NCBI RefSeq assembly: GCF_004962245.1 | Contig: NZ_SUHQ01000003.1 | Coordinates: 1 to 64,000, forward strand | Reading direction: 5' to 3' | DNA: 64,000 bases | Source of the DNA: Mesorhizobium sp. | Lineage (GTDB): Bacteria > Pseudomonadota > Alphaproteobacteria > Rhizobiales > Rhizobiaceae | Shown: piece by piece, positions 18,930-57,101 of the stretch | Layout: every line of letters starts with the position of its first letter | Numbering within the stretch: position 1 is the stretch's first letter | Notes under the pieces: model-generated | Seen by the model: the letters and a program-made list of their open reading frames with translations, nothing else | What the model was told of the DNA's origin: nothing | Databases searched by the model: none | Made by a program: the position numbers and the translations under genes

Positions 18930-20117
18930 ATGACCATGCCAATTTCGCCGGATCGCGATACACGTCGCGATACACGTATTGACGTGTTCCGCGCTCTCGC
19001 TCTGCTGATCATATTTGTCGATCACGTGCCGGGCACCGTTTTCGAAACCTTGACCTACAAGAATTTCGGCTTTTCGGATGCCGCGGAGGCCTTCGTGCTG
19101 ATCTCGGGCATGTCCGTCGCGCTCGCCTACGGCTCAAAGTTCCAGCCCGGAAACCGGCTCATGGCGACACTGAAATTATGGCGCCGCGCCGGCGTGCTCT
19201 ATTTCGCCCACATCGTCACGACGATGGTGGTGGTGGCCATCTTCTGCGCGGCGGCGGTGTTCGCGAAGCGGCCGGAGATGCTGACGATGATCAACATCGG
19301 GCCGTTGATCAGCAACCCGCCGCAAGCGTTGATCGGCATCGTCACGCTTGGCCATCAGCTCGGCTACAACAACATTCTGCCGGTCTATTCAGTGCTGCTG
19401 CTGATGGCGCCGGCCCTCCTGCTCCTCGTCAGCTACAGGCCCATGGCGGCGCTCGCACTCTCCGGAGTCCTGTGGCTGGTTGCCGGGATCTACCAGATCG
19501 CCCCGCCCAATTATCCGGAGCCCGGTTTCTGGTTCCTCAATCCGCTGTCGTGGCAGTTCCTCTTCACCATCGGCATGGCGGGCATGCTGCATATCAGGCG
19601 CGGCGGCACCATTCCGGTCAATCGCTGGCTGGTCGGCGCGGCGGCAACCTATGTCGTTGTGGCGTTGGTCTGGGTGCACAGCCCGCTGTGGGGGCGGGTG
19701 TCGTGGCTGGATCTGCCCGTGGTGCTGGCCGGTTTCGACAAGACATTCCTGTCGCTGTCGAGGCTGCTGCACATCCTGGCGGTGAGTTATCTGATCGTGG
19801 CCTTTCCTTCGGTCTCGAACCTGTTCCGCACAGGCCGCGATCATCCGCTCGCCATATTGGGCAAACGATCGCTGCCGGTTTTCATCGCCGGCACGGTGAT
19901 CGCCATGGCGGCGCAGGTGATGAAGCTGATCAACCCGGGCGGATTTGCCTACGACAGTTTGCTGATCGCCGCCGGCATCGCCATGCAGTTCGCGCTCGCC
20001 TATTATCTCGAGTGGCTGTCGGGTATCGGCGGCAAGAGCAAGCCGGTCCGCGGCGAGGCGCCGCCTGTCCATGCGTCCTTCGGTGTGGGGGCCATGGCGA
20101 CAGGTGCCAACCCGTAA
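18930..20117 (+). CDS. opgC: OpgC-family acyltransferase
   Basis: This 395-residue integral membrane protein has about ten helices. It starts with the OpgC signature RDTRIDVFRALALLIIFVDHVPG, containing the conserved His of the acyltransferase-3-like fold, followed by FVLISGMSVALAYG. OpgC adds succinyl or other acyl groups to periplasmic glucans; in rhizobia such proteins modify cyclic glucans and affect osmoadaptation and host interaction. A 12-bp tandem duplication (CGCGATACACGT twice, near 18955) encodes the repeated residues RDTRRDTR. It ends 12 bp before the convergent LacI gene. Confidence 0.88.
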   Translation: MTMPISPDRDTRRDTRIDVFRALALLIIFVDHVPGTVFETLTYKNFGFSDAAEAFVLISGMSVALAYGSKFQPGNRLMATLKLWRRAGVLYFAHIVTTMVVVAIFCAAAVFAKRPEMLTMINIGPLISNPPQALIGIVTLGHQLGYNNILPVYSVLLLMAPALLLLVSYRPMAALALSGVLWLVAGIYQIAPPNYPEPGFWFLNPLSWQFLFTIGMAGMLHIRRGGTIPVNRWLVGAAATYVVVALVWVHSPLWGRVSWLDLPVVLAGFDKTFLSLSRLLHILAVSYLIVAFPSVSNLFRTGRDHPLAILGKRSLPVFIAGTVIAMAAQVMKLINPGGFAYDSLLIAAGIAMQFALAYYLEWLSGIGGKSKPVRGEAPPVHASFGVGAMATGANP

Positions 20118-20128
20118 GCATTCCGGGC

Positions 20129-21211
20129 TCAAGCTGTTTCGGGCGGCGGCCCGGAAGATGCCCTGACGACAAGCTCGACGCCGAGCGTCTCGCGCCGCAC
20201 CGTGCCGTCGAAATCGAGGATCGTTCGCGCCGCCCGGCGGCCGATCTCGGCGATCGGCTGGGCGACCGTGGTGAGCGGAGGATCGCAAAGCGCGGCGTCG
20301 GGCACGCCGTCGAAGCCGACGATGGAGACGTCGTCGGGGACCGCCATGCCCCGCGCGGCCAACCACTCGATTGCGATCATGGCCATCCGGTCCGACATTG
20401 CCAGGATGGCTGTCGGCGATTCTGCAGCGGCGAAGATCGTTTCGAGGCCGGCCTTTGTGCTGGCTTCGTCGTTTTCGGTCTCGTAGACCGGCACCTTGGT
20501 GGTATCGACGCCGAACCGGGAAAGCGCCTCGAAATAGCCGACGAGGCGATCGCGCGTGCCGGTGTAAACCGCGGTGCGGATCCGCTCCGGCGAGACAAGG
20601 CCGGTGCTGTCGTCGGCGAAAGGCAACGCCAGAACGGCGAAGCGCCGATGGCCAAGCTCGGCCAGATGGTGCGCCGCCAGACGGGCGCCGGCGACATTGT
20701 CGACGCCGATTGCCGAAACAGTGTCGTCGTCGAAGCCGAGTTCGAGCGCGACAAAGGGGAGTTTGCGTTCGCGCGTCAGCTCGACGAGGCGTGAGCCGCC
20801 CTCGATGCAGAACAGAATGAAGCCGTCGACCAGCGCGCTCTGGATGTTCCAAGCGAGCTTCTCCTCATTGCCGGCGGATACCAGCGCTATTCCGGCGCCG
20901 GTGGCGTCACATGCCTCGGAAATCCCGGCCATCATCGTGCGGGCAAAGGGATCGTCGAAGAAATAGGACAGCGGCTCGGTGGTGGCGACGCCGATCGCGT
21001 TGACCTTGCCGGCGCGCAGCAGCCGTCCCTTGGGATCCGGACCCGCATAGCCCATCGCCTCGGCCGCCGCCTTGACCCGCTCGCGGACTTCCTCGCGCAC
21101 GATCTCGGGACGGCTGAACACGTTGGAGGCGGTGCCGTGCGAAACCCCCGCAGCCCTGGCGATGTCGGCCAGCCGGACCGGTCTTCTGTTGCCTTCGGTG
21201 GATGACGCCAT
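20129..21211 (-). CDS. LacI-family transcriptional regulator
   Basis: The N-terminal helix-turn-helix VRLADIARAAGVSHGTASNV and hinge helix (RERVKAAAEAMGY) are followed by a periplasmic-binding-like sensor domain (residues 65-345) with GLETIFAAAESPTAILAMSD and DVSIVGFDGV. The ligand is probably a sugar or related metabolite. No transporter or catabolic operon adjoins it. Instead, its upstream region carries repeated near-palindromes TTGGATCGATTCAA, with the CpG centre typical of LacI operators, in front of two tiny genes on the opposite strand. It probably regulates those and itself. Confidence 0.92.
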   Translation of the reverse strand: MASSTEGNRRPVRLADIARAAGVSHGTASNVFSRPEIVREEVRERVKAAAEAMGYAGPDPKGRLLRAGKVNAIGVATTEPLSYFFDDPFARTMMAGISEACDATGAGIALVSAGNEEKLAWNIQSALVDGFILFCIEGGSRLVELTRERKLPFVALELGFDDDTVSAIGVDNVAGARLAAHHLAELGHRRFAVLALPFADDSTGLVSPERIRTAVYTGTRDRLVGYFEALSRFGVDTTKVPVYETENDEASTKAGLETIFAAAESPTAILAMSDRMAMIAIEWLAARGMAVPDDVSIVGFDGVPDAALCDPPLTTVAQPIAEIGRRAARTILDFDGTVRRETLGVELVVRASSGPPPETA

Positions 21212-21247
21212 TCTTTTCTGCCTCCGGATTCCTATCTAGCATCTTCG

Positions 21248-21343
21248 TTGGATCGATTCAAATTTTTACTTGACATTTGTGGGGTGAGGTCTATTTTTGA
21301 ATCGATCCAAGTTCAGCGCCAGCGGCTGATTGGATCGATTCAG
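21248..21343 (+). promoter_or_regulatory. Promoter with three LacI-type operators
   Basis: Near-palindromes of the form TTGRATCGATYCAA lie at 21248-21261, 21297-21310 (reverse orientation) and 21330-21343 (last base differs). Between the first two is a strong promoter: TTGACA at 21270-21275, a 16-nt spacer, and TATTTT at 21292-21297. The second operator overlaps the expected transcription start, and the third lies just upstream of the ribosome site AGGAAGGAGAG. This layout fits repression by looping or multiple occupancy. Confidence 0.8.
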
Positions 21344-21356
21344 GAAGGAGAGAGCC

Positions 21357-21500
21357 ATGCACCCCGTCAATTATCTGTTCGAAGACGTCTATCGCAACGA
21401 CTGGAGCATCACCTCGAACGCAGTGACCCGGAGACGTCGCGGCGGCGCCGGTCCGTGGATTCGCGATCTGCGTTTTCTCGTGGAGCGCAAGCGGAGCTGA
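21357..21500 (+). CDS. Operator-controlled 47-residue protein, copy 1
   Basis: The ATG at 21357 follows AGGAAGGAGAG at ideal distance. The protein starts MHPVNYLFEDVYRNDW, then continues with an arginine-rich segment TRRRRGGAG and ends RFLVERKRS. It has no signal peptide or membrane helix. Its first 17 residues are nearly the same as those of a second small protein at 21563. Shared N-terminus, strong ribosome sites and operator-controlled promoter argue that it is real. No known family is recognised; a role as a regulatory or adaptor peptide is speculation. Confidence 0.65.
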   Translation: MHPVNYLFEDVYRNDWSITSNAVTRRRRGGAGPWIRDLRFLVERKRS

Positions 21501-21527
21501 TCGGCAGCGCTTTTTCAGGCCTGTCGA

Positions 21528-21541
21528 TTGGATCGATTCAA
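21528..21541 (+). promoter_or_regulatory. Fourth LacI-type operator
   Basis: TTGGATCGATTCAA, identical to the operator at 21248-21261, lies between the two small genes, 21 bp before the second start codon. No separate promoter is obvious, so it may act as an internal road-block or auxiliary operator. Confidence 0.75.
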
Positions 21542-21562
21542 ATTGAAGAAGGGAACCAAGTC

Positions 21563-21712
21563 ATGCATCCGATCAATCATCTGTTCGAAGACATCTACCG
21601 CAATTATTGGGGCATCTCGCCGGCCACCGACAGGCCGGAGCGGCGGCGCCTGACCAAGCCGGCCGCACATGATCGCGGCCTGCCGGTCCAGCCCGAACGC
21701 CGGCAAGATTGA
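21563..21712 (+). CDS. Operator-controlled 49-residue protein, copy 2
   Basis: This is a paralogue of the protein at 21357, starting MHPINHLFEDIYRNYWG. After residue 17 the two diverge; this one continues with a basic, proline-rich tail ending QPERRQD. The start has GAAGAAGGGA upstream. Conservative substitutions (V/I, Y/H, V/I, D/Y) at otherwise fixed positions suggest selection on the N-terminal module. It is probably cotranscribed with copy 1. Function unknown. The 128-bp region up to 21840 holds only weak hairpins. Confidence 0.62.
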   Translation: MHPINHLFEDIYRNYWGISPATDRPERRRLTKPAAHDRGLPVQPERRQD

Positions 21713-57009: not shown

Positions 57010-57101
57010 CGACCGCCAGCCGATTTCAATCGATCTAATTAGGCGGCGGCGCTGGCGCACATAGCTTTTAGGCGAAAGCCGGGCAAAAACCGAACAATAT
57101 C

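Follow-up and report, generated by a model that had tools for sequence, protein, structure and literature searches.

LacI-family regulators are the textbook switches of sugar genes. In the available sections of PMC4052901, carbohydrates are the effectors for 103 of 107 (96%) LacI orthologous groups. AglR and ThuR, two local LacI regulators of the Rhizobiales covered there, combine a LacI helix-turn-helix (HTH) domain with a sugar-binding-type core, bind an even palindrome with a central CG, and have a divergent target with the operator near its promoter; they control operons of kinases, ABC transporters and hydrolases (PMC4052901). PckR (SMc02975), likewise a LacI-family protein of the Rhizobiales, is in the same sections a global regulator whose regulons in central metabolism comprise four genes at the minimum and reach 14–28 (PMC4052901). 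A second point of comparison is the DUF1127 family of small, arginine-rich proteins. As far as the available parts of the sources go, the sensor kinase PhoR is a binding partner of small DUF1127 proteins in Agrobacterium (PMC12501420), CcaF1 of Rhodobacter is an RNA-binding DUF1127 small protein, and the roles cited for the family include RNA turnover and the metabolism of phosphate and carbon (PMC10117765).

The locus described here lies in a window of 64,000 nucleotides of Mesorhizobium DNA, which is the whole stretch that was analysed (Table 1). Its regulator resembles AglR and ThuR in domain composition, in the divergent arrangement, and in a predicted operator that is an even palindrome with a central CG near the target promoter. 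Unlike theirs, it has no pathway gene as an adjacent target, just one or two micro-genes, and it is set apart from PckR by the size of the predicted regulon, no further exact operator site being present in the genome. The micro-proteins in turn differ from DUF1127 proteins in matching no DUF1127 model and in having no profile similarity to the DUF1127-like proteins that take their place in other genera. The regulator and the operator type are those of an ordinary LacI family member. Three features have no precedent in the literature searched, namely the dedicated micro-protein output, the protein family that no model describes and the swapping of outputs. Among the matches listed, judged by titles and the beginnings of abstracts, there was no publication on LacI with DUF1127 or on LacI with Mesorhizobium small proteins, and the operator spelled out as letters, TTGAATCGATTCAA, was not found in the literature searched. 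We consider it likely, from comparison of the sequences, that the locus is a conserved switch pairing one regulator with one cassette: bound to palindromes at the promoter, the LacI-family protein would keep two micro-genes repressed, and a predicted small-molecule inducer would release it.

Table 1. Features of the regulator and micro-gene locus, in window coordinates.
Feature	Position	Strand	Description
OpgC-type membrane acyltransferase gene	18930-20117		convergent with lacI; 12 bases between its end and the lacI stop
LacI-family regulator gene (lacI)	20129..21211	-	360 aa; divergent from the micro-genes; Pfam LacI HTH and Peripla_BP_3 above cut-offs
Predicted operator O1, TTGGATCGATTCAA	21248..21261	.	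8 bases before the -35 box; starts 37 bases from the lacI start
Predicted promoter, TTGACA-N16-TATTTT	21270..21297	+	between O1 and O2
Predicted operator O2, TTGAATCGATCCAA	21297..21310	.	starts in the last -10 base; spans the expected transcription start
Operator-like O3, TTGGATCGATTCAG	21330..21343	.	one mismatch; runs into the gene 1 ribosome site
Ribosome-binding site of gene 1, AGGAAGGAG	21342..21350	+	sequence
Micro-gene 1	21357..21500	+	47 aa
Predicted operator O4, TTGGATCGATTCAA	21528..21541	.	21 bases ahead of gene 2
Ribosome-binding site of gene 2, AAGAAGGG	21546..21553	+	sequence
Micro-gene 2	21563..21712	+	49 aa

A preliminary description of this DNA had proposed a LacI-type gene divergent from two open reading frames (ORFs) of 47 and 49 codons, which share the start MHP[VI]N[YH]LFED[VI]YRN and then diverge, each behind a ribosome site, together with a TTGACA-N16-TATTTT promoter flanked by operators. 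All of these elements are borne out in the sequence. Of the four operators said to be of identical type, O1, O2 and O4 are exact palindromes of the pattern TTGRATCGATYCAA, but O3 carries one mismatch. The statement that no sugar transporter or enzyme gene is nearby calls for caution, as OpgC-type, DUF423 and MFS genes adjoin the locus (the latter two downstream of the micro-genes and both on the minus strand), although all three belong to other strands or transcription units than the micro-genes. Many relatives of both micro-genes, which that description held to be absent from the usual length cut-offs, are already annotated as 'hypothetical protein'. Most of the 40 longer Mesorhizobium loci have an OpgC-type gene close to lacI; none was seen in the short flanks of other genera.

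Both domains of the regulator score above their Pfam cut-offs (PF00356, 42.9 bits against 27; PF13377, 110.1 bits against 26.5), placing it in the LacI family. None of the named LacI equivalogs (RbsR, CytR, PurR, CcpA and others) was reached, the best being RbsR at 140.3 bits against a cut-off of 382, and for each of the 19 NCBIfam families listed the score was far under the cut-off. Within its own genome, the second-best match is merely 35% identical. The nearest solved chains are 3h5t and 5ysz, both of the LacI family with no named function, and PurR of Escherichia coli, a member of the same family by sequence, ranks next and is the best solved relative with a named function (E about 1e-42). 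The effector domain is highly conserved among the orthologues across families, and one arginine and one aspartate, which we take to be effector contacts of PurR, align with residues that are invariant in these LacI proteins. The ligand of the window LacI is probably a sugar or a sugar-like metabolite, because carbohydrates are the effectors of all but four of the orthologous groups counted in the available part of the survey cited above (PMC4052901).

The preliminary description had suggested looking for the shared N-terminal module in relatives. Gene 2 was matched at E<=0.1 in 136 of 146 Mesorhizobium genomes, one match being doubtful (G063, E 0.096) and discarded because it is weak and that genome is without this lacI. 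Nearly every large Mesorhizobium genome in the sample carries the micro-protein family. All relatives with an organism label among the matches listed (in one search, the best 120 of 357) are Mesorhizobium. We examined 70 loci in the genus, consisting of the 30 best matches and 40 chosen ones (mainly weak matches or long contigs), which after removal of duplicates left 64 distinct loci, 57 with two micro-genes and seven with one. lacI is divergent beside the micro-genes in 70 of 70 (64 distinct), and the neighbouring genes are largely fixed across Mesorhizobium. The module also follows the predicted operator, a point that the preliminary description had wanted checked: O4 travels with the second micro-gene and lies, at no more than one mismatch, within 60 nt of it in 56 of the 57 distinct two-gene loci. 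The O3 position is looser, with 18 of the 57 at one mismatch or fewer, 19 when two are allowed, and more than two mismatches in the other 38. Of the 11 Mesorhizobium genomes with no micro-gene or a doubtful one, 10 are likewise without such a lacI (E<=1e-60). The other genome (G011, locus L269) has kept a lacI orthologue (71%) and lost the operators and the micro-genes, with the DUF423 gene now adjoining lacI; the absence of both operators and micro-gene there fits their joint loss.

Across the family, 394 genomes were sampled, and 37 of them, from 16 of 109 genera, have a LacI orthologue (E<=1e-110). All 37 have at least two predicted operators beside lacI, matching TTGRAYCGRTYCAA with at most one mismatch; in two (G081, G363), lacI contains an in-frame stop. 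Among the matches listed in a scan of named genomes, lacI of at least 53% identity to the lead sequence occurs in seven loci (two Mesorhizobium, two Devosia, two Rhizobium and one Rhizobiales, at least three of them from genomes also present in the other samples), and operators accompany all seven. The reverse search, which began from the operators, covered 394 genomes of the family and 397 of the order, samples that overlap, and found a pair in 22 and 21 of them respectively, in one place per genome; a reversed control pattern of the pair had no match in either set. A LacI gene adjoins in each of the 36 operator-pair loci inspected and is the orthologue in 35. The remaining one, L133 (order genome G752, family f23, about 440-2480), has a different LacI, 41% identical, and two TTGGATCGATCCAA sites around a promoter ahead of two ORFs read as cupin-like; it is a more distant LacI regulator with a near-identical predicted operator. 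The geometry is steady, the O1 and O2 starts being 46–51 bases apart in 111 of 115 cassettes (most commonly 49, in 60 of 115), with TTGA[CT] 5–8 bases after O1 in 110 of 115. A pattern search for the cassette beyond the order, in 230 genomes of the class (three of them of the order), returned the window's own genome only.

A closer link between protein and site came from comparing the recognition-helix residue with the sixth base of the operator half-site in 118 distinct loci. Where the residue is H (81 loci), the base is T in 431 half-sites, C in 22 and A in one; where it is Q (25 loci), it is T in 94, C in 42 and G in two; and where it is K (10 loci), it is C in 56 of 56. The remaining loci are one with R (three T, three C) and the L133 paralogue. 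An exception is L262, in which an H-type LacI faces ACCGGT sites. The K loci form one supported clade on the lacI tree, so the association of K with ACCGGT may represent a single event. Judged from these alignments, the recognition-helix residue and the central bases of the predicted operators change together across genera. Co-occurrence and covariation together make it very likely that the predicted operators belong to the window-type LacI, an assignment that had previously been a conjecture.

All 37 family genomes with the LacI orthologue carry a small gene beside lacI, and its identity varies. By our reading, the slot holds the micro-protein family in 25 genomes (10 genera), an arginine-rich DUF1127-like protein of about 87–92 aa in 10 (4 of the 16 genera that have the LacI), and other small proteins in two (g60 and g41). 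These last, of 74 aa (L127, g60) and 82 aa (L262, g41), belong to no recognised family and stand beside the same LacI with its operators. Outside the family, an orthologous cassette was seen in three more families of the order (f6, f16, f50); of the 12 genomes concerned, 10 have MIP.SY[LF]F...Y starts and two have DUF1127-like proteins. Seven of eight chosen DUF1127-like slot proteins match PF06568 at E<=1 (best 9.9e-6), and of two scored singly against its cut-off of 23.3, one lies above (25.1) and one below (17.0). The preliminary description missed these unrelated-looking small proteins behind the same LacI in other genera.

Membership of the distant micro-proteins was assessed with two models built from the Mesorhizobium alignment, one limited to its first 19 columns and one of full length. 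Of 13 chosen sequences, 10 scored above the top one of 1000 shuffles (5.4 bits) with the former and 12 (6.0 bits) with the latter. None of five DUF1127-like and two other slot proteins beat the best of 1000 shuffles with these models, and the window micro-proteins had no match to PF06568 at E<=0.1. The idea that micro-proteins and DUF1127-like slot proteins share a common descent was considered and dropped, as hhalign gave a probability of 0.1% and the shuffle-scored models lent it no support. Since there is no sign of homology, function cannot be transferred by descent from the DUF1127-like proteins. Net charges range from 0 to +9 in chosen micro-proteins and from 0 to +5 in the DUF1127-like slot proteins. 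When the slot classes are placed on a lacI tree built from 59 chosen rows, two changes are needed for the DUF1127 class, of which well-supported branches force only one; L136 sits on a long branch and its place is doubtful. The gene beside the conserved LacI is best read as an exchangeable effector gene.

This exchange bears on a different reading of the same cassette, in which the micro-proteins act back on LacI as anti-repressors or co-repressors and the whole is a self-tuning circuit instead of a sensor with an output. Micro-protein and LacI do co-occur nearly without exception, and exact operators are found in the window's genome only at this locus, which speaks for such a loop. However, the regulator stays when a DUF1127-like protein or either of two other unrelated-looking proteins replaces the micro-protein, and the genome with L269 retains lacI with neither operators nor micro-gene, so that we regard a closed loop as unlikely.

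We also asked whether the micro-genes might be one minor target of a LacI that runs a scattered sugar regulon, the usual business of its family (LacI regulators mostly control sugar genes in the available sections of PMC4052901). In the window, five palindromes at two or fewer mismatches (one of them distant, at 57025) compare with 0.65 in shuffles, and none of 100 shuffles reached five; promoter-like sites in the region number two, against a mean of 0.1. A pattern search allowing up to one mismatch across the 6.9-Mb genome found three exact sites, all at the micro-gene locus, where base composition predicts about 0.02. One-mismatch sites are O3 and two others, and these two need no explanation because about 1.1 are expected from base composition alone. 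One is intragenic, inside an ORF read as an aldehyde dehydrogenase. The other (G000:C81:150806; L110:1501-1514) is 38 bases upstream of an ORF with the look of an MFS transporter and is the one site that speaks for a wider regulon. Against it, the operator pair is single in all 22 family genomes that have one, and we judge the scattered regulon to be quite improbable.

Micro-genes 1 and 2 are paralogous, their products each built from a conserved start of 16–18 residues and a variable, mostly basic tail. Over codons 2–18, dN/dS is 0.065 for gene 1 (49 distinct sequences) and 0.084 for gene 2 (50 distinct), like that of lacI (0.076 over 80 codons), whereas the tails are looser (0.42 and 0.37). 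This comparison, which the preliminary description had recommended, thus revealed purifying selection on the common module, and with low dN/dS in the module and loose tails, selection maintains a protein module of about 17 residues, as that description had guessed. Differences fall at third codon positions in 63% and 75% of cases. Gene 1 has 45–47 codons in all copies but two, and gene 2 has 43–55, with exceptions. Frameshifts in homologous loci, named beforehand as a sign against the genes, are confined to single broken or frame-changed copies, lengths being otherwise steady and the module under purifying selection. By these sequence measures, both micro-genes are protein-coding and under selection. 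Among individual copies, gene 1 is frame-changed in L050 and a 15-codon remnant in L063, L046 has an ATA start, L042, L044 and L056 have long read-on ORFs, and at least three gene 2 matches among those listed (G083, G057, G042) contain an in-frame stop. Neither Pfam (E<=0.1) nor NCBIfam held a model that matched the micro-proteins. An AlphaFold2 model contained a short helix at residues 5–13 only, with a mean pLDDT of 54, and a structural reading from this one low-confidence model was dropped.

The same data make it very improbable that the small ORFs are instead a regulated RNA, either an sRNA or a leader, in which the palindromes would fold into RNA hairpins. Each of the two ORFs in the window is indeed preceded by palindromes within the transcribed region. 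However, the share of third-position differences, a module dN/dS below 0.1 and the near-constant length of gene 1 are those of a protein, the operator variants track the LacI recognition helix, and the window has no co-directional gene closely 3' of the micro-genes for a leader peptide or attenuator to control. That two adjacent small ORFs with a regulator are a toxin-antitoxin-like or mobile pair is scarcely credible, given largely fixed neighbours across Mesorhizobium, two micro-genes that are paralogous to each other, and a lacI and one DUF1127-like slot protein without plasmid matches. In that search for a plasmid origin, neither lacI (E<=1e-80) nor the slot protein had a match in 72,556 PLSDB records.

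For the preferred reading, a dedicated LacI switch, the arrangement of sites suggests how it may work. LacI on O1 and O2 would cover both promoter flanks and the likely start point; because these two sites flank the -35 and -10 boxes, the bound repressor would shut the promoter between lacI and the micro-genes. O3 and O4 would add repressor occupancy inside the transcribed region, and we infer that the four sites may cooperate. The predicted inducer, probably a sugar or sugar-like metabolite, would free LacI and turn the micro-genes on. The released micro-proteins may then serve as small adaptors for some partner, protein or RNA, as DUF1127 proteins do; this role as small basic adaptors is proposed, with low confidence, because a DUF1127-like protein takes the same slot. 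The earlier notion of a metabolite-responsive LacI switch dedicated to tiny proteins thus gains from gene co-occurrence, operators and selection as regards the dedication, while the response to a metabolite is our prediction. More broadly, the cassette could be a sensor module of the Hyphomicrobiales, in which the sole output of a LacI metabolite sensor is a tiny basic protein able to reprogram an RNA or kinase pathway. Sensor and two-operator promoter would be retained across families of the order, and the output (micro-protein family, DUF1127-like protein or others) would be swapped; we put this forward tentatively and lean against it.

The locus adds a protein family to those without a Pfam or NCBIfam model. 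If the proposed switch is true, the sole visible output of a conserved LacI regulator would be a protein of about 50 residues, and micro-proteins could end metabolite-sensing pathways. The DUF1127-like cases suggest testable partners for the micro-proteins, and the exchange of the predicted outputs beside an unchanged LacI is a natural experiment on the roles of small proteins.
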